Source: Caldilineaceae bacterium (GTDB taxonomy: Bacteria > Chloroflexota > Anaerolineae > Caldilineales > Caldilineaceae). Taken from it: 64,000 bases of DNA. The translations under genes were made by a program, and so were the position numbers. The notes below the pieces were generated by a model that worked only from the letters and a program-made list of their open reading frames with translations, did not search any database and was not told the DNA's origin. Location of the stretch: contig JAHBVH010000020.1 in NCBI GenBank assembly GCA_019637645.1, forward strand, positions 1 through 64,000. The letters are read 5' to 3'. Shown here one piece after another: positions 19,490-59,216 of this stretch. Position 1 is the first letter of the stretch. Each line of letters begins with the position of its first letter.

Positions 19490-19736
19490 GCTCTGTTTTC
19501 TGCAAAACTATTCGGTTGCTCGTAGTGCAACGGCTAGACGCCAACGGCGACCCTGTTACGCTCCTGCTCGATGCTCTGGCGAATGTACCCAGAGAACTTA
19601 CGCACAAAGATTGGCTTCGCAGCCGATAAGTCCTACGCTGCTCAAGGGATATCGAACAGGCCAAGTCGTTGCCTTATTGTTGTACGCATCTCCAGCAGAG
19701 ATCCTAACGCACTTTCTCGTAAGGACAAAATTTAGG

Positions 19737-21837: not shown

Positions 21838-21851
21838 GATCGCGATCGTTT

Positions 21852-22958: not shown

Positions 22959-23039
22959 AAACCTTCCAAAGATCTGGTATCCCGTTGGCTCGGTGGTGCC
23001 TACCACGGCCAACCTAGGAGCTTGCCGCTTAACTATGCG

Positions 23040-24146: not shown

Positions 24147-24180
24147 GATGCTCTGTTGGTCCTCAAAACGATAGAGATGG

Positions 24181-28044: not shown

Positions 28045-28046
28045 GG

Positions 28047-29584: not shown

Positions 29585-29608
29585 AGAAAGTGATTCACAT
29601 CGGATAGT

Positions 29609-30457: not shown

Positions 30458-30465
30458 ATCTGTCT

Positions 30466-33366: not shown

Positions 33367-36300
33367 CTAGCGCTGAATGCTGGGCAAGAAGAGATAGAAC
33401 AGAGGTTCGCTTTGGACGACAAGCGACTCGCCAAATTCCGATGAATTGCCTTGGGTATCGGTGGCAATCGCGGTCAGATTCGCAGGGGCGTAGAAGCTCC
33501 CCTCGACCACCAAAGCGAAATTCCCGGCGGCATCTGCTGTGGTGCTGCCCAAGAAAACGCGCCCCTGGGTCGCCGCATCGCTATAGAGTTCGATGGTTGC
33601 GTTTGGTGAATTGACGCGACCAACCACCGTGCGGCCCTTGATCTCCGTGATCTTAGGCTTAGGCACATTGCTGTTTGCCCCCGCGGAGAGCATGATCCCG
33701 CCTTGTTGATTGCCATAAATGGCATTGGCCGCCCAGTGGTTTTGGTAGGAGAGCGCGGTATTGACACGGATCCCATTCAACGCGTTGCCCTGAATAATAT
33801 TTTCGTTGATCGCGGTGCCCACCGCACCATCGGTGAGATAAACCCCATGCCCACCATTGCTCTCGATCCGATTGTGACTGACCTGTGTATTGGTCGCCGC
33901 GCGAATGTCGATCCCGCTGCCGCTATTGCTGAAAATGGTATTGCTCAACACTTCATTATTTTGGAGGGGAATCGCATTTTCGGGCTTGATCTGGATCCCA
34001 ACATCGGTGCTGCCCGTAACTTGGTTGCCAACGAGTTGGTTGCCATCCGACCGGAGATAGAAGCCATAGCTGCTATTGGCGGTCGCTAGATTATTGGCAA
34101 GGCGATTCTGGTTAGAGCCGAGCCGTGTTTGCAGCCCATAGCTGGCATTTTCGCGGAAGGTGTTGTCGTGAATGTTGTTGTTAGTGCTGCCGTCCTCTAC
34201 TGTCAGGCCCGTCTGATTGTTGTGGAGGTTGTTGTTGCGAACCTCATTGTTATTGGAGCCTTCGATGTTAATGCCATAGCCGCGATTGTCATACGCTTCG
34301 TTGCCCTCTAACAGGTTTTCCACCGAAGCCGCGGTCGGGGCCGAGCCTTGGGAGATCACAATGCCGTGGGCGAAGCTAGCACCGTTCGTGTAAGCCTTGT
34401 TGTTGCGTAGCGTAAAGTTTGTACAGCCGCGTGCCAAAAGGATGCCGTGGGCGGCGTTGTTATAGGCCAGATTCCCTTCCAAGAGGGTATCGCGGCTGTG
34501 GTCGCGGGCATAAAAGCCATAGCTCAGGTTGGCATAGAACTCATTATTCGTAAGGCGCAGATCCCCGGCCTGCATGAGATGCACCCCCACATAGTTGTGA
34601 TGGAATTTGCTATGACTAACTTCGCCTGTAACCGCGGTGCGCAGAATGCCCGCGGCACTCGCCGCGCTGATTTCGCTTTGGGCGTCATCCCGCCAGGTGA
34701 CGCCATAGCTTTCGCTGTGGGCTGGCGAGCCAAGGTAGCTGATTTCCGAGTTTGTGATATTGAGCGTCGCTCCATATTTAGCTACGATAAAGGCGCGGCC
34801 ATCGCTGATCGTGTCGTCAAACTTTGCCAAGATGGGATCCCAACCATAGATCTTTGCGCCGTTGATATTAATGGTGCCGTTGTGGGTGCGGATATAGACA
34901 AAGCCTGCATAATCGACGGTGCTGCTAACCGGATTAGCCGCACTACGTAACTGTAATTCGGTCACGCCTTCATCCACGCCGATATTGAGCGTGACTTCGG
35001 TCTCTACCTTGAGATTGGCATTCAGCCGCCAAACGCCATTCCCCAAGTTTTGCAATAAGTCTGCATTGGCTACGCCCAAGAGGGTCTGAATTTTATCCAA
35101 GGTAGCCACGGCACCGGCACCGGTGAGCTGAATGAGTGGCTGATTTTGCTCATCGACGGCGACACTGGTAAAGAGATCAACGCTGGAGCCAGAGGCAGTA
35201 CTAAAGGCCGAGCTGTTGCCACTGCTGTCGATGGCTAAGGCCGTGACACGCTTTGGGTCTTGGCCGACAGGGAGCTGGAAGGCCCACGCACCACTACCGT
35301 CGGCAGTGGCGGTGCCCAAGAAGCTTTCGCCTTCGCTGCCAGGATCGCTATAGAGCTCTATGGTCGCATTGGCTGTGGCCGTACCAATCGCCTGCCCATC
35401 GGCGCGAATTTCGCTGATGACTGGCGGCAGAATCCCCTGTTGCGCTCCACCGTCGAGCTTGATCCCAGAACCGGCATTGTTGGTAATGCGATTCTGGCTC
35501 AGCCGATTGCGCAGGCTGACATTGCCCGCTACGACAATCCCGCTGCTTCCATTGGTGCGAATTGTATTGTTGACGATCCAGTTGTCGGTGGAGCCATCGC
35601 CAGCGGTCGTGCTCTTGAGAAAGATCCCATTACCCAGATTGCTTTCAATCAGGTTGCCGACCAACGGCGCGCCCGTGGTGGGATCGGCGCCAATCCCATT
35701 GCCCACGCCCCCTTCGACGCGAATGCCGATGTCGGTGTTGTTGCTAATGGTGGAGCTGATCACCACGTTGGCACTGCCAGCCAAGGCCAAGAGGGGAATC
35801 TGCCCCATGCTTTCGGCCTCGCCCACGAGGGCAATACCCGTCTTGCCCTCGCGGATGACATTGCCTTCAAGCCGATTCGCGCCGCTTTTGATGTAAATGC
35901 CATAGGTGGCGCTGCGCAAAATAGTGTTGTTGCGCAGGAGATTGTTATCGGCGTGCGCGTAGAGGTAGATGCCATAGGCATTGCCCAGATCCGAGGCGCT
36001 ATCTTCAATCAAGTTGCCAATGAGCTGATTGTTGGCCGCGGGATTATTGAGCGCCCCACTGACGCGGATCCCGTTGCGGTTGTTGCGCGCATGGTTATTC
36101 TGGATGAGATTATTGTCGCTATCGCTCACGGCAAGGCCATCGCTCTGTTGATAGATGGTGTTGCCGATCACTATATTGTTATTAGCCTCATTATCCAGCA
36201 GAATGCCATGGCGCGCGTTGGCATAGATGGTATTACTCTGGATCGTGTTCTGGACAGCGTTGTTATAGAGCACAATCCCATCCCCACTATTCGTGCCCTT

Positions 36301-37152
36301 GTTGCCGTTGTCATGAACGGCGACCCCACTGATCGTCACCCCTTGCGCACCATCGCGAACAAAAATACCGTGGTTGAGATTGTTGGCGACTTCGGTAGTC
36401 TGCCCACTTTGGGCCGCGTCGGTGAGGATGGTGATATTGGTCCCATCGGCAATAAAGAGCCCGTGATAGTTATGGTGAAACTTGCTGTTGACCACGCTGC
36501 CCGTGGCGCCGGTGGTTGGATCGGCGGGGTTTTGGCGTTTGACCCAAGCAACGCCGCTGGTGCTGCTGTTGGTGGCGTCGCCCAAATAGCCTAGATCACT
36601 GTCGCGAATATCCAAGCGCGATCCATTTTGGGCAACGATGTAGGCGCGGCCATTGCTGATCTCTTCATCAACTTGATTGTTGACGCTATCCCAAGCAACC
36701 ACCTTGATGCCCTCGATCAACAACTGGCCACCACCGTTGACCTGGATATAGGTCGGGCTGCCGACGGCCAGAATACTTTCCAGCCGGAGTTCGGTCATGC
36801 CTGCCGCGCGCGTTGCTTCGAGGCGACCGGTGGCGGCCACGACGATCCGCGCCTTGGTGAGCCAAACCCCGCCCCCTTGGTCAACGAGTACGTCTGGCGC
36901 ACCCGCCCCTGCCAAAGTCGCGGCCACGGCGGGCAAGGTGATGCTTTGGCTGCCAGGTATCGCCCCATTTAGGCTGCCAATGGTAATGATGTTGTTGCCA
37001 GGGTTATAGGTCACTTGGGGCGCGCCCTGGGCATAGACTTGGCTGCTCAACAAAAATGAGCAGAAGAACAGATAACTCGCCACAACGAGGCGGAGGCCCA
37101 ATGTTCGTTGTGCGCGAAAGGGATGGGGAGAGCGGTGTTGGGTTAAAGACAT
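33367..37152 (-). CDS. Secreted protein with two AlgG-like parallel beta-helix domains
   Basis: 1261-residue exported protein: signal peptide (about 18-42), then two similar halves. Each half begins with a GNGVW/GGGVWLTKA-type segment, then ISNGRAYIV or ISDGRAFIV, SDLGYLG or SEISYLG, then a long right-handed beta-helix of N-rich rungs (GNxxxxN, YGIxL). A small Ig-like AxxxLYSD segment follows each helix. The C-terminus is FYLFLPSIQR. The helices resemble the C-terminal part of the GT2 fusion gene at 46372, whose DPHD motif is here YARD (about 881-884) in the second half and FVRD (R266) in the first, so the catalytic His is replaced by Arg in both. It is probably a polysaccharide-binding or structurally altered paralogue rather than an active epimerase (inference). 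Confidence 0.85.
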   Translation of the reverse strand: MSLTQHRSPHPFRAQRTLGLRLVVASYLFFCSFLLSSQVYAQGAPQVTYNPGNNIITIGSLNGAIPGSQSITLPAVAATLAGAGAPDVLVDQGGGVWLTKARIVVAATGRLEATRAAGMTELRLESILAVGSPTYIQVNGGGQLLIEGIKVVAWDSVNNQVDEEISNGRAYIVAQNGSRLDIRDSDLGYLGDATNSSTSGVAWVKRQNPADPTTGATGSVVNSKFHHNYHGLFIADGTNITILTDAAQSGQTTEVANNLNHGIFVRDGAQGVTISGVAVHDNGNKGTNSGDGIVLYNNAVQNTIQSNTIYANARHGILLDNEANNNIVIGNTIYQQSDGLAVSDSDNNLIQNNHARNNRNGIRVSGALNNPAANNQLIGNLIEDSASDLGNAYGIYLYAHADNNLLRNNTILRSATYGIYIKSGANRLEGNVIREGKTGIALVGEAESMGQIPLLALAGSANVVISSTISNNTDIGIRVEGGVGNGIGADPTTGAPLVGNLIESNLGNGIFLKSTTAGDGSTDNWIVNNTIRTNGSSGIVVAGNVSLRNRLSQNRITNNAGSGIKLDGGAQQGILPPVISEIRADGQAIGTATANATIELYSDPGSEGESFLGTATADGSGAWAFQLPVGQDPKRVTALAIDSSGNSSAFSTASGSSVDLFTSVAVDEQNQPLIQLTGAGAVATLDKIQTLLGVANADLLQNLGNGVWRLNANLKVETEVTLNIGVDEGVTELQLRSAANPVSSTVDYAGFVYIRTHNGTININGAKIYGWDPILAKFDDTISDGRAFIVAKYGATLNITNSEISYLGSPAHSESYGVTWRDDAQSEISAASAAGILRTAVTGEVSHSKFHHNYVGVHLMQAGDLRLTNNEFYANLSYGFYARDHSRDTLLEGNLAYNNAAHGILLARGCTNFTLRNNKAYTNGASFAHGIVISQGSAPTAASVENLLEGNEAYDNRGYGINIEGSNNNEVRNNNLHNNQTGLTVEDGSTNNNIHDNTFRENASYGLQTRLGSNQNRLANNLATANSSYGFYLRSDGNQLVGNQVTGSTDVGIQIKPENAIPLQNNEVLSNTIFSNSGSGIDIRAATNTQVSHNRIESNGGHGVYLTDGAVGTAINENIIQGNALNGIRVNTALSYQNHWAANAIYGNQQGGIMLSAGANSNVPKPKITEIKGRTVVGRVNSPNATIELYSDAATQGRVFLGSTTADAAGNFALVVEGSFYAPANLTAIATDTQGNSSEFGESLVVQSEPLFYLFLPSIQR

Positions 37153-44032: not shown

Positions 44033-45544
44033 TTAGGGCGCGCAATCCAAAGTCGCGGCTTGTGTTTGTTGTACGAGGGGTAGATAGATGTGTGCGGTGT
44101 AGTCCACCACCGCTGGTTGGGGCAAGACCGCCAACGCGCCAAGGGTACTATTGCCTTCACCGGCGTAGCGGGCTGGGCTGATCGGCAGCAGGCGGAAATC
44201 GGCCTGGGCAGCAGCGGCAAACTGCGGGTCCACCGTTAGGGTATTGGCGCAGCCATTCACCGCAAAGCCATCGCCCGTGGTATGAAAGAGGAGGTTGTAA
44301 GCACAGGTGTAGGAAGATTCTAGCCGCGTATTATCTTCAATGTTTGTCTTGTAAAAAATGTTATTCTTGATCAGGGTATCGTTGGGCAGCTTGGTCTGCT
44401 CGGCATTCCCCAGCTTGAAGCGCCCACAGATCATTGTGTTATTGAAGAAATGCAGATTCTGGGCTTGTACAATCGGCATGTCACCGTCGCTGGCGCTGGT
44501 CTGAAAAAACAAGTTATAGCGAACAAGACCGCTACTGATCAGTCCCTCTCCATTCCCGGAAGCGAAACGGATCGATGTGCCTTGGCATTGCTGAAAATAG
44601 TTGTATTCAATGATGTGTTGATCTGCCACTTGATCATTTTCGTGAATCACCATGCAGCCGTCGGAGCGATCCTCGCCGGCCCCTAGTTGATGTAAGGTTG
44701 TCCCATCAAACAGATTATGGGCGATTAGCAGTGGAACTGTGGTGGTTTTGATATCCACACATTGTTCCATGTTTAAGCCATGGGCACAGGTATTATAGGT
44801 AAACGCCACATAGCCCACATCGCGTACCTGAAACATATCTTCCGCTGGCGTAGTAAACCACAGCTTAGTGAGTTTGTTGTTGGTAATGAGGATCTGATCC
44901 GGCCGTTGTTGTTTTTTTTCGGCAGTCACAAAAATATTGTGGCCGGTTGCACCGCCATCAATCTCGTTACCCGTAATGGTCACATAGCTGACATCGTCGC
45001 TCAGGCGAATGGCGTCATTTTGGCCGCCGCGAATGCGATTATGGCGGAGAATGACTTGGGTGATCGGCCCCCAATAGCGCCCGCGATATTCACTATCGAC
45101 GCGAATCACATAATCGGTGTCGGCTGTTCCGGCGGCCTCTATGGTGAGCCCCGCAATGATCGTGTAGGAGAGGGGGCGTAATGTCCCATAGAGGGTGACG
45201 GATTCACAGTCATAGGGCTGGATGGTGATGAATTGATCGGGCGCACCGGCTGGTAGCCAGAGTTTATCGCGCGCTTGGTAGGTCCCGCCGCGCAAGAGGA
45301 TGGTTGTGCCCGGGGTGGCATTGGTGAGCGTCTGTTCCCAATCGTCGGTTGGCCCCACCACTACACTATTGGCAACGGCTGCCGGGGTAGCACAGGGTTC
45401 CAGGATGGGCCCCAAGCTCGCGGCAGCGCCATAGCGTGGTGTTGCGTTGGGCGCGGTTTGGGCCGAGAGTACCCATGGCGTACTGCCGAGCCACAGCAGC
45501 AAGCTAAGCGTACCAAAGAGGCCGCCCAGGAAATGGTGTTTCAT
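44033..45544 (-). CDS. Secreted right-handed parallel beta-helix protein (pectate-lyase/chondroitinase-B-like fold)
   Basis: 503-residue exported protein. Signal peptide about 1-29 (LFGTLSLLLWLGSTPWVLSAQ). The start of the helix, TNATPGTTILLRGGTYQARDKLWLPAG, resembles PL6/chondroitinase-B-like and pectate-lyase-fold proteins, followed by rungs such as VILRHNRIRGGQNDAIRLSDDVSYVTITGNEIDGG. Several Cys residues (for example AHGLNMEQC, DGCMV, ICGRF, TCAYN) suggest disulfides. The tail is HIYLPLVQQ plus about 12 residues, the YLPxxQ motif seen in other exported proteins here, but not at the very end. Catalytic residues of a named lyase family could not be aligned, so activity is open. Confidence 0.8.
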   Translation of the reverse strand: MKHHFLGGLFGTLSLLLWLGSTPWVLSAQTAPNATPRYGAAASLGPILEPCATPAAVANSVVVGPTDDWEQTLTNATPGTTILLRGGTYQARDKLWLPAGAPDQFITIQPYDCESVTLYGTLRPLSYTIIAGLTIEAAGTADTDYVIRVDSEYRGRYWGPITQVILRHNRIRGGQNDAIRLSDDVSYVTITGNEIDGGATGHNIFVTAEKKQQRPDQILITNNKLTKLWFTTPAEDMFQVRDVGYVAFTYNTCAHGLNMEQCVDIKTTTVPLLIAHNLFDGTTLHQLGAGEDRSDGCMVIHENDQVADQHIIEYNYFQQCQGTSIRFASGNGEGLISSGLVRYNLFFQTSASDGDMPIVQAQNLHFFNNTMICGRFKLGNAEQTKLPNDTLIKNNIFYKTNIEDNTRLESSYTCAYNLLFHTTGDGFAVNGCANTLTVDPQFAAAAQADFRLLPISPARYAGEGNSTLGALAVLPQPAVVDYTAHIYLPLVQQTQAATLDCAP

Positions 45545-46371: not shown

Positions 46372-49300
46372 ATGCCTGAGAATTTGTTACAGGAATTTCA
46401 GCGCCTGTTTCAGCTAGTCTTTGAACTTTTCACTCAGCTCCAAAGCCTTGGAAACCTGCTGCTGCTGTTGATTCCTGTGGGGATCATTGGGTTTTGGCGG
46501 TGGGGCGTTTGGCTGGTGCGCAAGCTGGTTGGCGCGCGCTATCGCCCTTTGGTGCCCAGTGGTTATACCACGACCACGAGCATTGTCACGCCGGTTTATA
46601 ATGAAGACCCGCAAGTCTTTCGCAACGCCCTGGAATCGTGGCTGGTCAATGGTCCCAACGAAATCATTGCGGTCATTGACTATAGTGATGAGACTTGTAT
46701 TCAAGAGTTTCGCCAATTTGAGGAAGCTTGCTCCGTTACAGGGGCGGTCACGACCAAGCTGATTATTACCCGCAAACCGGGCAAACGTGCGGCATTGGTG
46801 GATGGGGCTCAGGTTGCCAGTGGGGAAATTGTCTTTCTGGTGGATAGTGACACCCTTTGGGAAAAAGATGTGTTGGTCAAAGCCATTGCCCCCTTTGAAG
46901 ATCCCGAAGTGGGCGGCGTGACCACCCGGCAAAATGTGCTGGAGCCCAAGACTGTGGCCCAACGGCTCTTTGATCTCTACCTCGATATTCGCTACCTCGA
47001 AGAGATTCGCTTTCTGGCGGCGGCCGGTGATGCCGTCACTTGTATCTCGGGGCGGACGGCTGTCTATCGGCGCACCGCAATTCTCCCCTTGCTTGATGAG
47101 CTGTTACACGAGACCTTCTGGGGCCAAGCGGTGATCGCGGGTGATGACAAGCGGCTGACCAACTTGGTGCAAGCTCAAGGGTGGAAGGTGCGCTATCAGG
47201 AAAGTGCCCGAGTCTATACCCCTGGCTTTCCCCGCATTGCCCAATTTCTCCGCCAACGGATTCGTTGGGCGCGCAACAGTTGGCGTGCGGATCTGCGCGC
47301 CATCTTCAGCCGCTGGCTTTGGCGTCGCCCCGTTTTGGCCTTCCATTCGATTGATCGCCTCTTTCAGCCCTTGACCACTCTGGTCGCGCCCACCTACCTT
47401 GTCTTGTCGGTGATCCATGGCGATTGGTTTACGACGATTATCATCTTGCTCTGGTGGATGATCTCGCGGACGATCAAAATTTGGATGCATCTTCGCCGCC
47501 GCCGCTCTAGCATTATGATCTTGCCCATCTATATTCTCTTCACCTATGTCTTTGCCCTAGTGCGCATCTATGCCTTCTTTACCATGAATCACCAAAGTTG
47601 GGTAACCCGGTGGGATAAGACGCGGGTGCGCCAACTGAGCTGGGTGCGCTCGGCCCTGAGCTACGCGGCGACGGGCATCATGGTGATCTTTGTCGTCGTC
47701 GTCATCAATGTGCTCTACAACCAGCGCCGCCTGCTGGCTAATATCACCGATCCCAATGTCGTGACCACCGAAGAACAATTACCGGCCTATAATTTACAGC
47801 GGGCCATGGATACGATCACCGTGCTCGAGCCGACGCTTGCCAGTGTAGGTGCTAGCCAAGTGGCGCAAGGCCAAACGGGCTATGAAATCGGGGTAAGCGA
47901 TACCCTGCCCTTAATTGCCCAAAAATATGGCGTGGCAGAAGACGCCATCACCTTGCAGTCGGGTACATGGAAAATTGGGGATCGGATTTCGATCCAAATG
48001 CCCTTTAAGTCCTATACCGACTACCGCCGCGCCCTCCCGCCCATTGCCACCCCCTCGACCGGCGTAAAAATCGAGTACCGACCAGAAATTAATGCCATTA
48101 CCGTGGTCGGAACCTTAGCCGTTGTGGATATTCCTACCATCCACCGGATCATCAATGATCCGGCCCTTTTGGAACATGAAGGCAATGGCGTTTATGTGCT
48201 TAAAACTAATTTAGAGCTAAAGCGCCACACTGTCCTGCTGGTGGAAGGCCCCCAAGTCACTTGGCTCAAGCTCAAAAGTGATGAAAAGGGCAGCGTGCGC
48301 ATCTTTGGCGATTCGGCCAACATTGGCATTAGCGAGACCAAGATCACCTCGTGGGATCCCAAATTGAATGATGTTGATCACAATGTCGAAGATGGACGCG
48401 CCCATATCCGGGTGAACAATAGCCGCATGGATATTGTGAAAAGCGAGATCGCGTTCCTGGGCCAGCCCAAGTTACGCAATAGCGGGGGCGGTGTCTATGG
48501 TCTCTCGTGGCGCATTGAAAATAGCGCTCGTTTCCAGCGGGAGCTAACCACGGGCACCTTTGAGGAAAATGATATCCATGATAACTACATGGGCTTCTAC
48601 TCCTTTGGGGCCACGGCCATGACCTTGCGCAATAACAAGGTCTATAACAACTTGGAATATGGGCTCGATCCTCATGACGACTCCAACAACTTTATTGTCG
48701 AATTCAATGAGGTCTTTAATAACGGCAACCACGGCATTATCTTCTCGCGCCGCTGTGTCAACAATATTATCCGCAACAACCGTTCCTATAACAACGCCCT
48801 CCATGGCATTATGCTCGACCGCGAAAGCAACTATAACTCGATCTATGACAACTACGTCGCGGGCAATACGGATGGCATTGCGCTCTGGCGTTCGGATCTA
48901 AACACCATCTACAACAACGAGATCGTCGGCAATAAACGGGGCATCCGCCTCAACCGGCGCAGTGCGGATAATGTGTTATATGCGAACCAGATCAACGATT
49001 CCAGCCAATATGGGGTCTATCTCTATGAGGAATCGCGCGCCAACTGGTTTATCAACAACCAGATGAGCAGCAACCGGGTTGGGATCTATATCCGCGCCCT
49101 GAACAACTATATCTTTAATAACGAGGTCGCCTTTGCCGATTCGATCAATAAGAGCAAACACGCCATCTATCTAACCGAAGAAGCCAGCGCCAACCAAATT
49201 GCCTACAACCGCCTATCCGGGTATCAGACGGGCCTCTACCTCAAGACCAATCCCGATGAATTTATTGTGAATAATGTCTTCCAGGGGGACCAGGAGAATA

Positions 49301-49443
49301 TTCGTTTTACCGAGGTGTGGCATTCGCCCGATAGTAGTAGCCCATCGGTTGGCACTCAGTTCAATCCGTGGCGCGGCTACCGCACCTTCTTCCGTTGGAT
49401 TTGGGCAGGCGTACAGGGCAACAGCCAAGCTCATTCACAATGA
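46372..49443 (+). CDS. Processive GT2 glycan synthase fused to LysM-like and AlgG-like C5-epimerase domains
   Basis: 1023-residue membrane protein. One N-terminal transmembrane helix (about 27-47); a family-2 synthase domain (about 60-320) with TSIVTPVYNEDP, VDSD (157-160), GDDKRLTN (257-264) and the processivity motif QRIRW (295-299), resembling hyaluronan/NodC-type and Alg8 synthases; several transmembrane segments to about 460; a LysM-like stretch (VSDTLPLIAQKYGV...IGDRISIQMP, about 510-555); then a parallel beta-helix (about 575-990). The helix matches AlgG mannuronan C5-epimerase in its DPHD motif (766-769), with HGIIFSRR 19-26 residues later. Topology puts the helix outside. It could polymerise a uronan and epimerise it as it emerges. 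GGAG lies 9 nt before the ATG. Sugar identity is inferred, not shown. Confidence 0.88.
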   Translation: MPENLLQEFQRLFQLVFELFTQLQSLGNLLLLLIPVGIIGFWRWGVWLVRKLVGARYRPLVPSGYTTTTSIVTPVYNEDPQVFRNALESWLVNGPNEIIAVIDYSDETCIQEFRQFEEACSVTGAVTTKLIITRKPGKRAALVDGAQVASGEIVFLVDSDTLWEKDVLVKAIAPFEDPEVGGVTTRQNVLEPKTVAQRLFDLYLDIRYLEEIRFLAAAGDAVTCISGRTAVYRRTAILPLLDELLHETFWGQAVIAGDDKRLTNLVQAQGWKVRYQESARVYTPGFPRIAQFLRQRIRWARNSWRADLRAIFSRWLWRRPVLAFHSIDRLFQPLTTLVAPTYLVLSVIHGDWFTTIIILLWWMISRTIKIWMHLRRRRSSIMILPIYILFTYVFALVRIYAFFTMNHQSWVTRWDKTRVRQLSWVRSALSYAATGIMVIFVVVVINVLYNQRRLLANITDPNVVTTEEQLPAYNLQRAMDTITVLEPTLASVGASQVAQGQTGYEIGVSDTLPLIAQKYGVAEDAITLQSGTWKIGDRISIQMPFKSYTDYRRALPPIATPSTGVKIEYRPEINAITVVGTLAVVDIPTIHRIINDPALLEHEGNGVYVLKTNLELKRHTVLLVEGPQVTWLKLKSDEKGSVRIFGDSANIGISETKITSWDPKLNDVDHNVEDGRAHIRVNNSRMDIVKSEIAFLGQPKLRNSGGGVYGLSWRIENSARFQRELTTGTFEENDIHDNYMGFYSFGATAMTLRNNKVYNNLEYGLDPHDDSNNFIVEFNEVFNNGNHGIIFSRRCVNNIIRNNRSYNNALHGIMLDRESNYNSIYDNYVAGNTDGIALWRSDLNTIYNNEIVGNKRGIRLNRRSADNVLYANQINDSSQYGVYLYEESRANWFINNQMSSNRVGIYIRALNNYIFNNEVAFADSINKSKHAIYLTEEASANQIAYNRLSGYQTGLYLKTNPDEFIVNNVFQGDQENIRFTEVWHSPDSSSPSVGTQFNPWRGYRTFFRWIWAGVQGNSQAHSQ

Positions 49444-49490: not shown

Positions 49491-52400
49491 ATGCGGAATT
49501 TATTGTCGAAATCATCGCGCACCGCGGTTCAGCTCGGTTTGGTGCTTGCGCTGCTCCTGCCCCAAGTGGCGACGCCCCCCATGGTCGTCGCTGCACCTGC
49601 TGGGCAAATTACGGTCCAAAACCCAACCGATGCTATCTTTAGCGAAGGCATCCAGCTCTACAATGCCGGTCAATGGCAAGCGGCCCTTGAAAAGTTTACC
49701 GACGTACAGCAGACCTATCAATATTACAACAACATCAAACGCAACGGCCAAGCCTGGGAATATATTGGCCTAGCTAAAGCCAAGCTCGGCGACTTCGCGG
49801 GTGCCATCCAAGCCTATCAAAATGCCCTCCCCTTGGCTAAAGCCAAAAACGACGGCGAACAACAGGCCAAGCTCAATCTCTATCTGGCGCGCGCCTTGGC
49901 CGATAGCAACGATGTCGCCGGCGCGCTGGCCGCCCAACAGGCGTCGCTACAATTGGCCCAAACACTCAACTTGCCCGAATGGGTTGGCAAAGCCCAAATC
50001 ATGGCCGGTCGGCTCTACCTAGCCCAAGCACAATCCAAAGAAGCATTGGCGGCCTATCAAGCCGCGCTCGAAAGCGCGCGCACGGTCAGCGACCAGGAGC
50101 TGATGGGCGAGGCACTCAGTGGTATGGGGCGGGTCTACGAAGCGCTCAACCAATATGAGTTGGCCGTCACCCCCTACCAACAGGCATTGTCACTGGCCCA
50201 AACGTTTCGCAACCCGGCGCTAGAAAGCCAAGCCTTGGCGGATCTGGCCAATATGTACCAAAAATTAGGCCAACCCCAGCAAGGGCTCTATGTCTATCAG
50301 AATGCCCTGCGCGCGGCCTATAGCATGGGAAATCTCACCTCAGCGGCCAAAACCCTGCTGAATATTGGCGACGCCTACGAGGATTTGAACCAACCGGAAA
50401 AGGCCCTGGAAGCCTACCAAGAAGCGTTAGAGCTACTGCCCACCCTGAACAGCCCGGATCTAGAAAGCAAAGCCCTCGCGGCCATCGGTCGGCTCTATCG
50501 CGATCTAGGGCGCTATGCCGAGGCCGAAGAAGCGATCCAAAAGGCGCTGACCCTGGCCCAACTCTATAATCAGCCTGGGTTGACCGGCTCCATCCGCGCC
50601 GATCTGGGAAGCAACTATCGCCAGACCGGTAACTATGATGAATCGCTCGCCGCCTACCAAGAAGCGCTGTTGCAAGCCGAGACAAGTGGGGATCAGGCGC
50701 TCGCGGCCAAAGCTTTGACTGGGATCGCCAGCACCTATCGCGCCATGAAACAATTCAATGAGGCGCTCACCCACTATACCGAAGCATTAACGCTGATCCA
50801 AGCCCAGAACAATCGCCAACTAGAAAAGAGCACTTTGGCCGATCTCGCCAAGACCTATCGCGATGTCGGCCAAACCGAGGAGGCGCTGGCAACCTATCAA
50901 CGGGCGCTCCAACTGAGCAAGGATCTAGGCGATGGGCCAGCGCAGGCCCAGATCCTGGTGGAGATCGGGAGCCTCGCCGTGGCCGCTGGCGATAATCTCG
51001 GCGCGCTCGATCAGTATCAGCAAGCCATGCGCCTGCTCGAAACCCAAGGCGATCCAGCCCAGCTGGTCAAGCTGCAAGGGCAGATCGCCAGCCTCTACCG
51101 TACCGCGGGCCAAACGGACGCGGCCCTGGCTTCCTACCAACAGGCGCTGCGTATTGTCGAAGCGCGGGGTGATCAGCTAACCCAAGGCGCGTTGCTCGGC
51201 GATCTCGGCGAAGTCTATTGGGAGATCGGCCAATGTACCGACGCCCTAGCGGCCTATACCCAAGCGTTGGGCCTGGCCCGCTTGGCGCGCAACCATACCT
51301 ATGTGATCAAACTGCTCCTGGCTAGTGCCCGTGTGCATGACACCGAAGGCCGTTTTGCCGACGCCCTCGATCTCTACGAAGAAGCTCTGCTGTTGGCCCG
51401 TCAACTCAACAATATTACCCTGGAAGCCGAAGTGCTGACCAACCAAGGCGATGCTTTCCGCGGGGCTGGGCAATTTGAAAATGCCCTCAGCGCCTATCAA
51501 GCCGCGCTACAGATCGCCCAACGGTTCTATATGCTGGGTCTACAAGTTGAAATCTATGCCGGTATGGCGGGGGCCTATCGCGAGTCCGGGCAATACGAAA
51601 AAGCGTTGCCTCCCTATCGCCAAGCCCTATCCCTGGCGCAACGGTTGGGGCAAACGCGCACCCAGGGTGAAATCCTGCTGGGCATCGGGCGTACCTACCG
51701 CGATCTGGGCCAATATCCCGATGCTACCAAGCAATATACGGCGGCGCTCGTCCTCGCCAAGGAACTGCGCGATCTCGACCTAGAAAGCCAAATCCTCAGT
51801 GCCCAGGGGGAAGTACAGCGCGTTGAAAAGCAGTACGAAACCGCCGTGGATAGTTATCGTCAAGCGCTGACCGTGGCAGAACGCCATCTGCGCACCTTGA
51901 ACCTTGCCGGACCCACCTGCCGTACCTTGGACGATTACCAACTGCCGGGGCGCATCAAAGCCGACACAGCACGCGTCTACCGGGATCAAGGGCTCTATGA
52001 ACGAGCCGTTGACGACTACCAAGCCGCGCTGGCGGACTCCAAGGAGATCACCGATCTAGAGTTGCGTGGCCGGGTCTATGTTGATCTCGGCAAGCTCTAC
52101 CGCGATCAGCGCAACTTCAACCAAGCCATTGCCGCCTACCAAGAAGCGGTGATCATTGCCAAAGAGAATGAGAATCTAGAGGTGCTGGGCAACACCTACC
52201 TGGACACGGGGCAGGTCTACCGCGATCTGGGTGAGCAACAAAAAGCACTGGAATTCTATCGCCAAGCGCTCGCCACTGGGCAAGAGTTGAAGGACAAAGA
52301 GCTGGTCGGCACTGCCCAACTAGAGATCGGCCACGCCTACCGTGAACTCGCCCAATATGAGCAAGCGATCAGCACCTACCAAGAAGCGCTCATCACTGCC

Positions 52401-55400
52401 GAAGCCGTGGGGCAACCCATTCTCAAAACCCGCGCCTACAGTGGCCTCGCCGCGGTCTATCGCGCCAGTGGGGATAACCAAAAAGCGCTGGAACAGTACA
52501 ACGAAGCCCTGGAACTGGCACGCGCCCAAGAAAATCGCGAACTCGAAACCGAGCTACTCGGCCAAATCGCCAAAGTCTATCGCGACCTACAACAGTTTGA
52601 TCAGGCCCTCGCCATTGCCGACCAGATCCAAGACCTGTCGGCCAAAGATGATATTCTGACCGATATTGCCAAGATCTACCGCAGTGCGGGGCAATATGAT
52701 CAGGCCATCGCACTCTATCAACAGGCGTTGACGGTGGCCGAAACCCTCAAGGACCCAGCTCTCCAAGGTGAGACGCTCACCGAACTGGGCAAAGTCTATC
52801 GTGCGATGCAGCAGCTCGAACAAGCGCTGGCCTCTTATGACAAAGCGCTCCAGATCGAAACTAAGCTAGCTGATCCCCGCCGCCGCGCCCTCGTCTTGCT
52901 TGAACTAGGCAAGACCTACCGCGATCTGAACCAACGGCAGCAGGCCCTGACCCGCTTCCAAGAAGCACGCCAAGCGGCCCAGCCCCTGGCCGACGCGACC
53001 TTGGATAGCGAAATTCTCGTCGAAACGGCGGCCATCTACCGCGATCAACAACAATATGAGCAGGCGCTTGTCCTCTACCAGGAAAGCCTGAATCGCCTCC
53101 AGCAAGTGGGTGACGCCGCGCGTGCGCGCGATGTCTTGGCCGAGATCGGGGGGGTGTATCTCGACTTGGGCAACACCGAACAGGCCCTGCGCACCCACCA
53201 AGAGGTACTCCAACTGGCGCGCCTCTCGGGGGATCAGGTGCTCGAAGGCAAAACCCTCCTCAAGCTCGCACGCGTCTACCGCGATAGTGGCAATCATGAC
53301 CAGGCACTGACCTTCTATGAAAATGCCCTCGCCTTGGGCCAAGTGCTCGATAACGCCGATCTGCGCAAAGATGCCTTGAACGATGCTGCCAAACTCTATG
53401 CGCTGCTCAACCGGCCTGAACAGGCCCTGCGCGCCTATGAGCAAGCTTATACCTTGGCTCAGGCCGGTGCCGACTATCCCATTGCTGGCGAAGCGCTCAT
53501 CGGGCAAGGACGGGCACAATTAGCCCTAGGCCGCTGTGAAGAGGCGGTACAGCGCTATCAAGCGGCCATGACCCTGGCCCAACAAGCGGCCTTGCCCCAC
53601 CTGGCGAACAGCGCCCAAATGGAACTTGGTAAATACTACCGCGACCAGGGGGATGCCGAGCGCGCCTTGGCCGCTCTAACGGCAGTGTTGACAGCCGCCC
53701 AAAAGAACCAGGACCAACCCGCGCAGATCTGGGCGCTGGCCGAAATTGGGCGTGCCCAGCGGGAACTGGGGCGCTACCCCGAAGCCCAACAGCACTACGA
53801 AAAAGCCGTGGCGCTAGCCCAGCCCTTGGGTGAACCCCAGTTGCTCAGCCAACTCCAATTGGATCTGAGCAAAATTCTGCGCCGTAGTGGTCAACCGGCC
53901 CAAGCGCTCACCATCCTGCAATCGCTTCAGGCCAGCCAGCCCACCACCGGCCCCGCAGCCAACAGCGTGCTGCTGGTAGAATTGGCGCGGGCCTATGTCG
54001 ATCTACAAGAATACGACCAAGCGCTCCAACTCTACGCGCAGGCCCTCACCGCGGTGCGCAGCCAAGCCACCGTGCCAACGACGCTGGAAGGGGAAATCCT
54101 TCTTGGGCGCGGCCAAGTCCAGGTGCTTCTCCAACAATATGACCAAGGCGCGCAAAGCTATGAAGCCGTGCTGACCTTGGCGCTGACCAATGGCAATTTG
54201 GCCCTCCAGGCCGAAGCCCTCGAAGGATTGGGCGCGCTCTACCGGGCTGCGCAACAATACAGCCAAGCCTTGGCTAGCTACCAAAAAGCACTGCCTTTGG
54301 TCCAACAACTAAGCCAACCAGGGCGGAGTTGTGGCGGCAAGGTCAAGCTGACCTGGGAAGCCCAGATCCAGAAAAATATTGGCAAAGTCTACCAAGCGCT
54401 TGGGCAGCTAGACGAAGCGCTGCTTGCCTATCAACAGGCGCAAACAGGAGCCGAGCGCCATGCCAATACGGCCCTCGCCAATGAAATGCGCTCAGCTATT
54501 GGGAATCTCTATCGGCTCCAGGGCAAGTTTGATCAAGCCTTGGCGCTGGCGCAACAGGTGGGCGATTTTGCCCTAGAGGACAAGATCCTCGACCAGATCG
54601 GTCAGGAGCTGCGCCAAACTGGTCAGCTTGACAAAGCGCTCGAGCCCTATACCCAAGCGTTGGCACGCGCCAAAGAAGTGGGCGATCCTGTCGCCGAGGG
54701 GCGGGCTTTTGCCAACCTCGGGCGGATCTACCGCGCCCTGGCCGACTATCCCGCCGCCGAAGAAGCCTATACCACCGCGCTGGCGCTGGTCCGCAAGCAG
54801 GGGGATCCTGTAGCAGAAAGCCGAACGCTGCTCGAATTGGGCAAACTCTATCGCACCATGGCGCGAGACGAGCAAGCCCTGACGGCTTTCCAAGCGGCGC
54901 TAACCTTGGTCCAAGCACAGAATGCGGCCTGTACCGCCGCACAAGCGCAAACGGCCTGTGATCCAGCCACGGAGCGGGCCTTGCAGGAAAGCATCGGCGC
55001 GATCCACCTGGCCGCGGCCCACTATGACGAAGCACTGACCGCCTATACTGTAGCGCTTCAATTGGCCGAAGCCGCGGACAATGTGGAAGAGACGGCCAAA
55101 ATTCTGGCGACCATGAGCCGCATCTATACGGGCCAAGGCCAACAGGAAAAAGCCCTGGACTTGCTAACCCAAGTGCAAGCCATGGCGGTGGATGAAGATG
55201 TCTTGACCGAACTCGCCAAAGTTTACCGCGATCTGGGGCAATATGCCGAGGCGCTAGAGCCCTATGAACAAGCGTTGGTGGCGGCGCGCCAAACGGGCGA
55301 TAGCACGACAGAAAGTAAGCTCCTCATCGAGATTGCCAAGCTCTATCGGGCCATGGCCAAGCCAGCCGACGCCATGCGTTCCTATCAACAGGCCCTCACT

Positions 55401-58400
55401 GTGGCAACGACCCTGGGTGATGCTGCCTTACAAGGCGAGGCTCTCGCTGGCGTTGGCAAGTCATTGCAGGAGCAAGGGCAATATCAAGCTGCACTGGAAC
55501 CCTACCAACAAGCGCTGGACCTGGCCCAGACCCATCACCTCGCAACTTTGGAACTGGCGACGTTGAGCCAACTGGGCAAAGTCCATCGCGATCTACAACA
55601 ACCGACTGAAGCATTGGCGCTCTATCAAACCGCGTTGACCAAAGCCGAAACCATCTCCAACACGCTCTTGATTGGCAGCATTCAAGCGGATATGGGCGCA
55701 CTCTATAGCGCTCAGCAACAGTGGGACCAAGCCGCGGCGGCCTATCAGAACGCCTTGACCCTGGCCCGTGAACGGGGCGATGCGCGACTCGTGGGCTCGA
55801 TCCTCCAAGGGTTGGGCACCGTGCAACAGGCGCGCCAGGACTATGAAGGTGCCTTGGCCTCCTATACGGAACTCTTAACGTCCGCCCGTGCCGTCACCGA
55901 CTCGATGTTAGAAGGGGATACACTGGTCAAGTTGGGCCGGCTCTACAGCGAACAAGGCAATCAGACCGAGGCCGTCGCCTACTATGAACAAGCGCGCGAC
56001 TTGGCGCAATCGTTCAACGACCAGACTCGCCAAGCCGCAGCCTTGGATAACTTGGCCCGTTCGCAGCGAGAAGCGGGCGATACCGAACAGTCGTTGCAAA
56101 CCTACCAAGCGGTGCTGACATTGGCCCAGGAAAGTGGCAATGCCCCGCTGGAGCGGCGGGCGCTCGAGAACATTGGCCGCTTCTATCGCGATGCCGGGCA
56201 ACTGACCCAGGCGCTTGACTTCTATCAGCAGTTATTGGGCAAAGCCCAAACCGCCACCGATCAGCCAGCTACGGTGAGCGCCTTGGAGAATATTGCGCGT
56301 CTCCAACGGGATGGCAATCAGCTACCAGAAGCCCTCGCAACCTATCAACAGCTCGCTGAACTCGCCAAAGAAGTAGCCGACCCGGCCTTACAGCTGGCAA
56401 CCCAGACGAACCTCGCCAAAACCTATAGCCGATTGGGCCGCTACGATGAGGCGGCTTCCACCTACGCGGCGCTCCTAACCGAGGCGCAACGCAATGGCAA
56501 TCAACTGCTGGCGGCGAACACGCTGCGCGATTTAGGCGATCTACAGCGGATCAGTGGCGATTATGTCGGGGTGTTTCAGCGCTACCAAGAAGCGTTGACC
56601 ACCTGGCAAGCGCTGGATGATCAGGCCGCGGTGACCCAGCTCCAGATGCATATCGGCGATGCCTATCGCGAGGTGGGGCAGTTCCCCCAAGCGCTGACCA
56701 ACTACCAAGCCGCGCTGACTTTTTACCAGCAGACCAAGCTGGCTGATGGTCAGATCGCGGCCTACAACGCGCTGGGGACCACCCTCCACGATATGGGAAC
56801 CTACGAACGGGCGTTGGCGGCCTTCCAAGCGGCACTGGGATTGGTGGATCCAACGACAAACCCAACCTATACCACCACGACCTATGCCAATCTAGGCAAG
56901 GTCTACCGCGCACTGCGTGACTATGATCTATCCTTGGAAAACTACGAGAAAGCGTTGGAACAGGTGCGTCTGCTTGGCGATCAGACCGGCGAAGTTCGCC
57001 AGTTGATCAACCTGGGGGTGGTCCATTCGGATCTAGGGCAGTATGAAGATGCCCAGCAGGAATATGAGCAAGCCGCCGCCCTTGCCAAAGCCCTGCAAAA
57101 TGAAGATCTCCAGGGGCGCGTCCTGGTGAGCTTGGGGAAAGTCTATCGCGATACGGCCCAATATGAGCTGGCGCTAGAAGTTTTACAAGAGGCCCTGGCC
57201 TTGCAACAGCGCCTGGGCGATCAGGCCGCGGAAGCTGGTATTCTCAATAACCTTGGTTCCATCTACCTGAACCTACTGCAACATGATCGCGCAATCGAAC
57301 CCTTTGAGCGCGCTGTCGCCGCGGCACAAGCGGTGCGGGACGACCGCACCGTAGGAGAAGCGCTGGCTGGTATGGGTATGGCGTATGAAAGCTTGGGCAA
57401 CCTCGACCGGGCGATCGATAGCTATCAACAGGCGGTTGCTGTCGCCGCCACCCAGCCTTCCAGCCTGGATACCTACCAACGCTTGATCAAGCTCCTCTGG
57501 GACGCTGGGCGCTTGGACGAAGTTTTTGGCTATATGGAGCAGGCCCTAACCCAGACTTTCCTCGATAGTGCCGGGAACCCTTGGCTCACCGTGCCTTCAA
57601 AGCTCGCCCCAGAGCTAGCCACCCAAGAGCAAAGCCTACGCCAGGAGTTGGTCGGCTTGCGCCGTGCCATTGTCACAGAGCAAGCGAAACCGTTGGCGCA
57701 GCGCAATCAAGCGCTGCTCACGACGCTCTTCAATCGGCTTGATGCCAAGCGCACTGCCTATACGGAGATCGTCACGCGGCTACGCACGCAAGACCCCGAA
57801 TATAGCGCTTTCTTGGGCTTACAGCCAAGCAGTTTGGACGAAGTCCGCACCCAAGTGCTGGATGAACAGACGACCTTGATCGAATATTTCATTCTGCGCA
57901 AGCAAGCGGTCGCGTGGGTGATCGACCGCGAGCGCGCGGTGCTCGTGCCACTAGATATTACGGCCCATGAATTAGTCAATCTCGTGACGGGCTTCTATGA
58001 CAAGATGGACGAACGCGCCACCGAAATTCCCGAAGCGGCGAGCCTCTATGCCCGGTTGGTAACACCGCTCCGTCCCTTTATTCGGCAGTCCAACCTGCTG
58101 ATCGTGGCCCATGGCGTGCTCAACTATGCCCCCTTTGCCGCCTTCTTTGACGCCCAAAACGAACAATTCTTGCTTCAGACCTACACCGTGAGCTATGCCC
58201 CGAGCGCCACCCTCTATCGCTCCTTGCTGAATAAGCGGAACCCCGATGGTGGGCAGGCCCTGGTCATGGGCAATGGCGACGATCGTTTGCCCTTTGCTCG
58301 TCAGGAAACGCGCACGGTGGCCGATGCCTTGGGGGTAACCCCCTTGATCGGCGAAGCGGCCACGGAAGAACAATTCTATGCCCAAGCCGCGCAAGCGGAT

Positions 58401-59216
58401 ACCCTCCACTTGACGGTAGCAGGCCGCTATGAGCCGCTAGAACCGCTCTTTAGCCAGCTTGCCCTCGCCGCGACCGCGACCCAAGATGGTCGGGTCGAGA
58501 CGCACGAGATCTTTAGCAAGCTTGATCTCAGCAATGCCAACTTGGTTGTCCTCTCCGGCAATCAGCAAGGCGATTTGCAGCGCTTTCATAGTGGGGCGGA
58601 AGTGCCCGAGTTTACTTGGGCCTTTACCTATGCCGGTGCCCCTGCTGTCTTGACCAGCCATTGGCGGGTAGACGATGCCAGTGTGGCCACCTTCTTTGCG
58701 GCCTTTTACCGCCACCTGCGCGACAAGGTGGTAACCGCCGAGGCATTGCGGCTTGCCCAGTTGGAAATGCTTGAACAAGACAAGTGGTCCGCCCCCTATT
58801 ACTGGGCGGCGTTTACCTTGGTGGGTGACTATCGGGGCAATGGCGAAATTCAGCCCGCCGAGAATCGCTCGGCCCAAGCCACGCCAGCAGCGGTCACTGC
58901 TGGGGATAGCTTCTCGGCCACCAACGGGAGTGCCAACGTGGCGGTGAGCACAGCCACGCCTGCGCTCACCGCCGCCGCAACGGTCAGCACCGTCTTTGCC
59001 GTGCGCGAAGGCGCTGAGATCGCTGGGGTTGCCAAAGATGAACCAGCCGCCACCGACCCAAATTCGGCAGCGGCCCCCGCGTCCTCGCCGATTGGCGACC
59101 TGACCAACGGCTTCTGTAATGGTATTACCTTGCCGCTGGGGCTGGTGCTCCTGGCCGATATCTTCCGCCGTGGCGTGTTGCGCCGCCGCCGTGACGAAGA
59201 GGACGGGTTGGGATAG
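49491..59216 (+). CDS. Giant secreted TPR-CHAT protein with inactivated CHAT domain
   Basis: 3241 residues. Signal peptide about 1-35 (VQLGLVLALLLPQVATPP), then roughly 65 tetratricopeptide repeats of about 40 residues (44-2690), each like YRDLGQYxxALxxYQQAL, forming a very long superhelix. A CHAT (caspase-like, HetF-associated with TPR) domain follows (about 2700-3120): IVAHGVLNYAPFAAFFD, LVVLSGNQQGD, FTYAGAPAVLTSHWRVDDASVATFFAAFY. The protease His normally in an ATHG segment is Ala (TVAG, A2977) and the Cys of SACETG is Asn (SGNQQG, N3024), so it is probably not a protease. A Thr/Ala linker, then a C-terminal hydrophobic helix and RRRR cluster (about 3205-3233) could anchor or sort it. GAGGAG lies 8 nt before the start; 47 nt follow the synthase gene, so they form an operon. 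Role: scaffold for the synthase (inference). Confidence 0.92.
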   Translation: MRNLLSKSSRTAVQLGLVLALLLPQVATPPMVVAAPAGQITVQNPTDAIFSEGIQLYNAGQWQAALEKFTDVQQTYQYYNNIKRNGQAWEYIGLAKAKLGDFAGAIQAYQNALPLAKAKNDGEQQAKLNLYLARALADSNDVAGALAAQQASLQLAQTLNLPEWVGKAQIMAGRLYLAQAQSKEALAAYQAALESARTVSDQELMGEALSGMGRVYEALNQYELAVTPYQQALSLAQTFRNPALESQALADLANMYQKLGQPQQGLYVYQNALRAAYSMGNLTSAAKTLLNIGDAYEDLNQPEKALEAYQEALELLPTLNSPDLESKALAAIGRLYRDLGRYAEAEEAIQKALTLAQLYNQPGLTGSIRADLGSNYRQTGNYDESLAAYQEALLQAETSGDQALAAKALTGIASTYRAMKQFNEALTHYTEALTLIQAQNNRQLEKSTLADLAKTYRDVGQTEEALATYQRALQLSKDLGDGPAQAQILVEIGSLAVAAGDNLGALDQYQQAMRLLETQGDPAQLVKLQGQIASLYRTAGQTDAALASYQQALRIVEARGDQLTQGALLGDLGEVYWEIGQCTDALAAYTQALGLARLARNHTYVIKLLLASARVHDTEGRFADALDLYEEALLLARQLNNITLEAEVLTNQGDAFRGAGQFENALSAYQAALQIAQRFYMLGLQVEIYAGMAGAYRESGQYEKALPPYRQALSLAQRLGQTRTQGEILLGIGRTYRDLGQYPDATKQYTAALVLAKELRDLDLESQILSAQGEVQRVEKQYETAVDSYRQALTVAERHLRTLNLAGPTCRTLDDYQLPGRIKADTARVYRDQGLYERAVDDYQAALADSKEITDLELRGRVYVDLGKLYRDQRNFNQAIAAYQEAVIIAKENENLEVLGNTYLDTGQVYRDLGEQQKALEFYRQALATGQELKDKELVGTAQLEIGHAYRELAQYEQAISTYQEALITAEAVGQPILKTRAYSGLAAVYRASGDNQKALEQYNEALELARAQENRELETELLGQIAKVYRDLQQFDQALAIADQIQDLSAKDDILTDIAKIYRSAGQYDQAIALYQQALTVAETLKDPALQGETLTELGKVYRAMQQLEQALASYDKALQIETKLADPRRRALVLLELGKTYRDLNQRQQALTRFQEARQAAQPLADATLDSEILVETAAIYRDQQQYEQALVLYQESLNRLQQVGDAARARDVLAEIGGVYLDLGNTEQALRTHQEVLQLARLSGDQVLEGKTLLKLARVYRDSGNHDQALTFYENALALGQVLDNADLRKDALNDAAKLYALLNRPEQALRAYEQAYTLAQAGADYPIAGEALIGQGRAQLALGRCEEAVQRYQAAMTLAQQAALPHLANSAQMELGKYYRDQGDAERALAALTAVLTAAQKNQDQPAQIWALAEIGRAQRELGRYPEAQQHYEKAVALAQPLGEPQLLSQLQLDLSKILRRSGQPAQALTILQSLQASQPTTGPAANSVLLVELARAYVDLQEYDQALQLYAQALTAVRSQATVPTTLEGEILLGRGQVQVLLQQYDQGAQSYEAVLTLALTNGNLALQAEALEGLGALYRAAQQYSQALASYQKALPLVQQLSQPGRSCGGKVKLTWEAQIQKNIGKVYQALGQLDEALLAYQQAQTGAERHANTALANEMRSAIGNLYRLQGKFDQALALAQQVGDFALEDKILDQIGQELRQTGQLDKALEPYTQALARAKEVGDPVAEGRAFANLGRIYRALADYPAAEEAYTTALALVRKQGDPVAESRTLLELGKLYRTMARDEQALTAFQAALTLVQAQNAACTAAQAQTACDPATERALQESIGAIHLAAAHYDEALTAYTVALQLAEAADNVEETAKILATMSRIYTGQGQQEKALDLLTQVQAMAVDEDVLTELAKVYRDLGQYAEALEPYEQALVAARQTGDSTTESKLLIEIAKLYRAMAKPADAMRSYQQALTVATTLGDAALQGEALAGVGKSLQEQGQYQAALEPYQQALDLAQTHHLATLELATLSQLGKVHRDLQQPTEALALYQTALTKAETISNTLLIGSIQADMGALYSAQQQWDQAAAAYQNALTLARERGDARLVGSILQGLGTVQQARQDYEGALASYTELLTSARAVTDSMLEGDTLVKLGRLYSEQGNQTEAVAYYEQARDLAQSFNDQTRQAAALDNLARSQREAGDTEQSLQTYQAVLTLAQESGNAPLERRALENIGRFYRDAGQLTQALDFYQQLLGKAQTATDQPATVSALENIARLQRDGNQLPEALATYQQLAELAKEVADPALQLATQTNLAKTYSRLGRYDEAASTYAALLTEAQRNGNQLLAANTLRDLGDLQRISGDYVGVFQRYQEALTTWQALDDQAAVTQLQMHIGDAYREVGQFPQALTNYQAALTFYQQTKLADGQIAAYNALGTTLHDMGTYERALAAFQAALGLVDPTTNPTYTTTTYANLGKVYRALRDYDLSLENYEKALEQVRLLGDQTGEVRQLINLGVVHSDLGQYEDAQQEYEQAAALAKALQNEDLQGRVLVSLGKVYRDTAQYELALEVLQEALALQQRLGDQAAEAGILNNLGSIYLNLLQHDRAIEPFERAVAAAQAVRDDRTVGEALAGMGMAYESLGNLDRAIDSYQQAVAVAATQPSSLDTYQRLIKLLWDAGRLDEVFGYMEQALTQTFLDSAGNPWLTVPSKLAPELATQEQSLRQELVGLRRAIVTEQAKPLAQRNQALLTTLFNRLDAKRTAYTEIVTRLRTQDPEYSAFLGLQPSSLDEVRTQVLDEQTTLIEYFILRKQAVAWVIDRERAVLVPLDITAHELVNLVTGFYDKMDERATEIPEAASLYARLVTPLRPFIRQSNLLIVAHGVLNYAPFAAFFDAQNEQFLLQTYTVSYAPSATLYRSLLNKRNPDGGQALVMGNGDDRLPFARQETRTVADALGVTPLIGEAATEEQFYAQAAQADTLHLTVAGRYEPLEPLFSQLALAATATQDGRVETHEIFSKLDLSNANLVVLSGNQQGDLQRFHSGAEVPEFTWAFTYAGAPAVLTSHWRVDDASVATFFAAFYRHLRDKVVTAEALRLAQLEMLEQDKWSAPYYWAAFTLVGDYRGNGEIQPAENRSAQATPAAVTAGDSFSATNGSANVAVSTATPALTAAATVSTVFAVREGAEIAGVAKDEPAATDPNSAAAPASSPIGDLTNGFCNGITLPLGLVLLADIFRRGVLRRRRDEEDGLG

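Follow-up and report, generated by a model that had tools for sequence, protein, structure and literature searches.

In the 64,000-nucleotide stretch of contig JAHBVH010000020.1 from a Caldilineaceae bacterium (the window), one gene on the forward strand (46372..49443) encodes a single protein in which a processive family 2 glycosyltransferase (GT2) is joined to a right-handed beta-helix of the type found in the mannuronan C5-epimerase AlgG. The open reading frame (ORF) runs from ATG to stop without internal stops and gives 1023 amino acids (aa). Both folds are recognizable, the catalytic residues are conserved in a widely spread family, and relatives carry pathway genes beside it. We consider it likely that this one chain is an alginate-type mannuronan synthase and C5-epimerase, as a sequence-only reading of the window had proposed; the single ORF, the two folds and the conserved residues support that proposal.

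The C-terminal half matches the Pfam families PF05048 (NosD) and PF13229 (Beta_helix), and its best NCBIfam model is the AlgG mannuronan 5-epimerase (6.1e-33, residues 600–883 on model positions 137–419 of 519). AlgG is also the best sequence match among solved structures (PDB 4nk6, 6e-28, residues 600–884), and the beta-helix fold matches AlgG at 2.4 Å. Y763, D766–D769 and R793 fall in columns that align with AlgG, with the tyrosine three residues before the DPHD motif; the AlgG arginine in the last of these columns is presumably the catalytic one. Together with the fold match, this alignment indirectly suggests that the DPHD residues point into the groove of the helix. The beta-helix with DPHD at 766–769 noted in the sequence-only reading is thus borne out, as is its arginine about 26 residues further on, which is R793, 27 residues after D766. 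Assignment of the helix to the NosD/CASH clan only was rejected: NosD is not the best match, and NCBIfam, PDB sequence search and fold comparison all place AlgG closest. Unlike AlgG, which is a separate periplasmic protein, the epimerase shares its ORF with the GT2 synthase.

In the N-terminal half, PF13641 (GT2) matches residues 70–302 (9.5e-29), and the VDSD, GDD and QRIRW motifs read earlier from the sequence hold up across 59 aligned homologues; the processive GT2 motifs required of an Alg8-type synthase are thus present. The second-best NCBIfam model of the protein is NodC (6.9e-33, residues 64–413; 114 bits, below the equivalog cut-off of 550), the second PDB sequence match after AlgG is the Chlorella virus hyaluronan synthase (2.3e-18), and the fold of the GT2 with its membrane helices matches class I hyaluronan synthase (HAS) and NodC. 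The glycosyltransferase (GT) half is of HAS/NodC type and is not Alg8-like.

A positive stretch follows the N-terminal membrane helix, and the GT side is for this reason taken as cytoplasmic (Table 1). There the GT2 domain would polymerize GDP-mannuronic acid, the presumed donor, and its own membrane helices would pass the growing chain outward. By analogy with HAS, we take helix 378–403 and the following loop to be an interface helix and a gating loop; compared with HAS, the protein presumably lacks one membrane helix at the N-terminus and another at the C-terminus. The last membrane helix would carry the chain to the outside and place the beta-helix near the channel exit, where a LysM-like segment perhaps holds it on the cell wall. 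That segment, also noted in the sequence-only reading, is upheld by PF01476 (LysM) in 34 of 120 listed homologues, whereas the window protein itself misses E 0.1 in Pfam. The beta-helix would then use the AlgG mechanism, with His768, Tyr763 and Arg793, to convert some D-mannuronate to L-guluronate. Coupling of polymerization and epimerization is suggested by the fusion, by the joint divergence of the two halves and by the neighbouring genes in relatives where the two are split. Most Chloroflexota and Patescibacteria have no outer membrane. The Pseudomonas AlgG works within a periplasmic complex that also contains AlgK and AlgX (PMC4444821). Cells that probably have no outer membrane could achieve the same by attaching their epimerase to the synthase, and the fusion may stand in for the periplasmic machinery of Gram-negative producers.

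Table 1. Features of the fused gene and its neighbours (positions in the window).
Feature	Positions	Strand	Basis
Whole gene, fused GT2 synthase and AlgG-type C5-epimerase	46372..49443	+	ORF, Pfam, NCBIfam, PDB, homologues
N-terminal membrane helix, residues ~25–47	46444..46512	+	hydropathy, model
Processive GT2 catalytic domain, residues ~68–311	46573..47304	+	Pfam, model, fold match
DSD motif (D158, S159, D160)	46843..46851	+	invariant in 59/59
GDD motif, residues 257–259	47140..47148	+	aligned homologues
QRIRW motif, residues 295–299	47254..47268	+	aligned homologues, read in DNA
Two membrane helices, residues ~320–369	47329..47478	+	model, hydropathy
Helix 378–403 and loop with invariant W410, T412, R413, W414	47503..47640	+	alignment, model
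Last membrane helix, residues 424–458	47641..47745	+	model, hydropathy
LysM-like segment, residues ~499–543	47866..48000	+	secondary structure; PF01476 in homologues
Right-handed beta-helix, AlgG-type epimerase domain, residues ~565–980	48064..49311	+	NCBIfam, PDB, model, fold
Catalytic motif Y763-G-L-D766-P-H768-D	48658..48678	+	sequence, AlgG alignment, family counts
R793, aligned with Arg of AlgG	48748..48750	+	alignment
3241-aa TPR protein with C-terminal CHAT domain	49491..59216	+	starts 47 bases after the stop of the fusion
Divergent 503-aa beta-helix, signal peptide by eye	44033..45544	-	weak PL6/chondroitinase B similarity

A protein search scored 7994 candidates, of which 392 matched at E 1e-3 or better and 120 were listed. 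GT2 and helix domains are both present in 118 of these 120; P0036 and P0058, the two exceptions, are shorter proteins on contigs of 2,695 and 2,194 bases. The closest named homologues among those listed come from Caldilineaceae (76–77% identity), and the named sources extend to Ardenticatenaceae and other Chloroflexota and to the patescibacterial Daviesbacteria, Levybacteria and Andersenbacteria. The fused system noted in the sequence-only reading is real, but it is no singleton: it belongs to a family of hundreds of members, and its synthase is of HAS/NodC rather than Alg8 type. A chance or shadow ORF is ruled out by this conserved family, the fusion with its motifs being far above chance, and a phage origin was rejected in the absence of any PHROGs match at E 0.001. 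Per genome, the family is rare. Matches at E 1e-60 were found in at least 4 of 400 sampled Chloroflexota genomes, all with a separate GT gene, in at least 2 of 396 genomes of one Chloroflexota class, one of them fused (G1047), and in at least 2 of 286 Patescibacteria, both fused (one being G001, on which that sample was centred); these counts are lower bounds because scoring was limited to two candidates per genome. Only G1047 gave a close relative with DNA, in a set of 46 genomes of its family and likewise in 46 of its order.

Across the 59 aligned homologues, eight GT motif residues (D158, S159, D160, G257, D259, Q295, R298 and W299) are identical in all, and residue 258 is Asp in 54 and Glu in five. 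In the helix, D766 is kept in 55, P767 in 50, and H768, D769 and Y763 in 53 each, with DTHD, DLHD or DGHD replacing DPHD in three members; residue 793 is Lys in 35, Arg in 23 and His in one. Six members (P0051, P0052, P0053, P0055, P0056, P0057) have lost both the catalytic His and Tyr and retain intact GT motifs. Judged by mean identities, these six resemble each other (GT 84%, helix 64%) more than they resemble 17 other members (61% and 44%), which were hand-picked as near the window protein, five of them bearing chloroflexotal names, and which share 66% and 58% among themselves. Epimerase function thus seems to have been lost naturally in one set of related members. The two halves diverge jointly (r 0.84), a correlation that could also come from shared ancestry alone.

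The DNA around eight fused copies was read (two in G001, one in G002, three in G003, one in G654 and one in G1047, the last with its end cut by the contig). Each directly adjoins a dehydrogenase, of about 300–320 aa where the frame is whole; in G003 one dehydrogenase lies between two tandem fused copies, and in a ninth case (G756) the same gene lies upstream of a GT cut by the contig end. These short dehydrogenases match the nucleotide-sugar dehydrogenase model TIGR03026. A Pfam scan of one of them gave the NAD-binding and central domains only, and all of 11 stop before the C-terminal domain when aligned with AlgD. Among nine references, 13 of 13, taken from fused as well as split loci, have Pseudomonas AlgD as their top-scoring match, the two AlgD references having been assigned by operon position. 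AlgD also leads PDB searches with a single short dehydrogenase (169 bits, then 145 and 81) and with a profile from which AlgD had been left out (247 bits, then 220 and 171). No AlgD model appeared in the NCBIfam scan of these proteins, whose best equivalog, below cut-off, is AglM, a UDP-glucose dehydrogenase, ahead of TuaD in seven of seven. This was at one point held against their likeness to AlgD and was dropped, because both Pseudomonas AlgD proteins give the same order; in two other Pseudomonas and two actinobacterial dehydrogenases TuaD ranks above AglM. The dehydrogenases beside the fusions are accordingly best described as AlgD-like by sequence. Short enzymes of this kind, ending before the C-terminal nucleotide-binding domain (e.g., L057:4328-5275, L002:12042-12953, L003:8990-9949 and relatives), range from Patescibacteria to Streptomyces and archaea.

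A genome scan for relatives returned at least 48 loci. In Levybacteria (L002), the fusion, the dehydrogenase and a PL7 alginate lyase follow each other on a single strand. Among 15 genomes searched, PL7 genes exceed the cut-off in G002, G003 and G1047, and the three proteins show RSEL, QIH and YFKxGxY, which we take to be PL7 motifs; in the 286 sampled Patescibacteria none exceeded it, and one weak match fell below. A split locus from the Chloroflexota sample (L068, genome G164) encodes on one strand a dehydrogenase, a GT and a 1404-aa frame with two DPHD modules, followed by a mannose-1-phosphate guanylyltransferase, a TPR protein and an AlgG-like helix without DPHD. Its guanylyltransferase matches TIGR01479 (1.3e-97, below a cut-off set for the two-domain enzyme) and PDB 2cu2 (2.2e-65), and TIGR01479 is matched at 1e-10 in seven of 11 genomes tested, over cut-off in none. 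Such a gene set could cover the route from mannose-1-phosphate through GDP-mannuronate to the polymer and its epimerized form. Other split loci combine a dehydrogenase and GT with a TPR protein and three AlgG-like helices, one with DPHD (L004, Chloroflexaceae), a short dehydrogenase and GT with a DPHD epimerase (L005, Streptomyces), a dehydrogenase and GT with two epimerases, one with DFHD, in the order dehydrogenase, epimerase, GT, epimerase (L014, Woesearchaeota), or a dehydrogenase with a GT (L012, Bathyarchaeota). These neighbourhoods lend genomic support to a predicted mannuronate polymer. In G1047, two adjacent proteins, each about 1300 aa long, combine AlgG-type modules with N-termini that by eye are signal-like (L066:11102-19194), and they adjoin a short dehydrogenase together with a second copy of the GT; a DPHD module is present in one and none was seen in the other, and the pair look like secreted multi-module epimerases.

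Several observations weigh against a mannuronan synthase-epimerase, beginning with the fact that the activities of both halves are predictions. The AlgG match scores 114 bits against an equivalog cut-off of 700 set for full-length AlgG, and the protein is for this reason not filed as AlgG itself. The GT shares only 22–24% identity with two Pseudomonas Alg8 sequences (assigned by operon position), and NodC and HAS score higher. No dehydrogenase was found within the window (best tblastn E 1.2), the dehydrogenase beside the G1047 fusion has an in-frame stop, and the missing C-terminal domain makes the substrate of the short enzymes itself a prediction. PL7 is absent from G001, G654 and G756, and a guanylyltransferase lies in the cluster at one locus only, a split one. 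The actinobacterial relatives fit least well. Helices at L006, L008, L009, L010, L011 and L017 are without DPHD, which is present at L005 and L015; full-length dehydrogenases lie near the GT on the same strand at L006, L009, L013, L016, L017, L018 and L020 and on the opposite strand at L011, and all eight are nearer to UDP-glucose dehydrogenase or other Pseudomonas dehydrogenases than to AlgD. Among the seven loci with the dehydrogenase on the same strand, the three with a helix that was checked (L006, L009, L017) are without DPHD. These GT relatives perhaps make a different polymer. The GT loci of G041 and G410 have neither partner in the stretch of DNA read, and because they and the actinobacterial loci do not fit, the GT family may serve more than a single polymer.

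The affinity of the GT for HAS and NodC in fold and sequence, the name hyaluronan synthase given by JGI to several homologues, and the full-length, UDP-glucose dehydrogenase-like enzymes of the actinobacterial relatives would all suit a hyaluronan- or heparosan-like synthase that uses UDP-glucuronic acid, with or without UDP-N-acetylglucosamine, and a helix that epimerizes glucuronate to iduronate. We regard this as unlikely in view of the AlgD-like dehydrogenases that adjoin the fusions, the PL7 lyase and guanylyltransferase in relatives' clusters and the AlgG type of the helix with its DPHD. The same four points speak against a synthase of another uronic acid homopolymer (e.g., polyglucuronate) with a matching C5-epimerase, for which no positive sign of another sugar was seen beside the fused copies; the substrates of the GT and the truncated dehydrogenase, being predicted ones, leave room for it, and we give it the smallest chance of all. 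An active uronic-polymer synthase whose helix merely binds or guides the chain, epimerization having been lost in the window protein, is slightly less remote than that but still improbable. The six members devoid of the catalytic His and Tyr show that the helix can persist without them, and residue 793 is often Lys; yet Y763, DPHD and R793 are intact in the window protein, and the His and both Asp are kept in 53 of the 59. Moreover, the six differ from each other more in the helix than in the GT, as expected if catalysis is what holds the active copies. A mannuronan synthase fused to its C5-epimerase thus remains our preferred interpretation.

Directly downstream of the fused gene in the window, the large TPR-CHAT (caspase-like) protein, which by eye has a C-terminal membrane helix, is a possible partner of the synthase; TPR genes also neighbour the split GTs of L004 and L068, so that a TPR partner recurs, and the CHAT domain beside a GT was seen in the window only. 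The divergent beta-helix upstream was considered as a PL6 lyase and rejected: the Pfam chondroitinase B match (4.9e-4) is below cut-off, PDB AlyGC is matched at E 0.22–0.27, and where it aligns weakly with the catalytic region of AlyGC, the Glu-x-Glu and Lys of that enzyme are missing. Further away are a protein of 1261 aa that contains two Ig-like domains besides six Beta_helix and six NosD stretches (33367-37152) and, on the reverse strand, a glycan cluster with a Wzy_C-TPR protein, several GT1- and GT2-type glycosyltransferases and a polysaccharide flippase (15827-32573).

Compared with the Pseudomonas/Azotobacter alginate system (Alg8, Alg44, AlgG, AlgD, AlgA, AlgL), the epimerase has the same Tyr, DPHD and Arg, and the relatives' clusters likewise hold an AlgD-like dehydrogenase, a guanylyltransferase and a lyase, with TPR proteins beside some. 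Here, however, synthase and epimerase form one chain, the GT is not Alg8-like, the dehydrogenase is without its C-terminal domain and the relatives' lyase is PL7, whereas AlgL is PL5. No homologue of Alg44 (PilZ), AlgE or AlgX appeared among the annotated neighbours, in which no dedicated search for these three was made. From class I HAS and NodC the system differs in the LysM-like segment and epimerase at the C-terminus and in AlgD-like instead of UDP-glucose dehydrogenase partners. The secreted multi-module AlgE epimerases of Azotobacter (PMC8824271) resemble the two-module proteins of relatives (1404 aa at L068, 1313 aa at L066) but not the membrane-bound window protein with its polymerase. 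Fusions of a synthase with a modifier, GT-PgaB and BcsAB among them, also join a polymerase to a partner from the export or modification complex, for a different polymer and without an epimerase; the alginate passages of that survey, which applied known-operon models to 1733 genomes and placed alginate operons mainly in Pseudomonas and atypical ones in environmental bacteria, name no synthase-epimerase fusion (PMC7112194, in the parts available). Nor did literature that mostly leaves out subscription journals yield an AlgG-synthase fusion or alginate genes from Chloroflexota or Patescibacteria. Taken singly, the two halves are of known kinds; what is new is that they are combined in a single chain, that the synthase is not of Alg8 type and that the AlgD-like gene is shortened.

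In conclusion, the chances seem evenly balanced that these genes constitute a second, separate route to alginate, in which a HAS-type GT lineage, supplied by a minimal AlgD-like dehydrogenase, polymerizes mannuronate and the same polypeptide epimerizes it on the outer side of the membrane. The route would be that of Chloroflexota and of Patescibacteria whose genomes measure about 1 Mb. Split relatives of this lineage occur in Actinomycetota, Chloroflexota and archaea. One source states that no functional validation has identified a brown-algal mannuronan synthase and that the bacterial epimerases nearest to the algal ones are actinobacterial, at about 30% (PMC11468063); if the separate route is real, the GT lineage would for these reasons be a lead to the algal enzyme. 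Polymerization and polymer editing would be physically coupled in one enzyme, such that the mannuronate/guluronate pattern could be set by the speed at which the chain leaves the channel, an idea testable with one gene and with the six natural members devoid of His and Tyr as ready-made controls. One gene would then suffice to make alginate of set composition, and alginate would extend beyond Pseudomonas, Azotobacter and brown algae, the producers named in the portions available of PMC4444821 and PMC11468063, to largely uncultured phyla.
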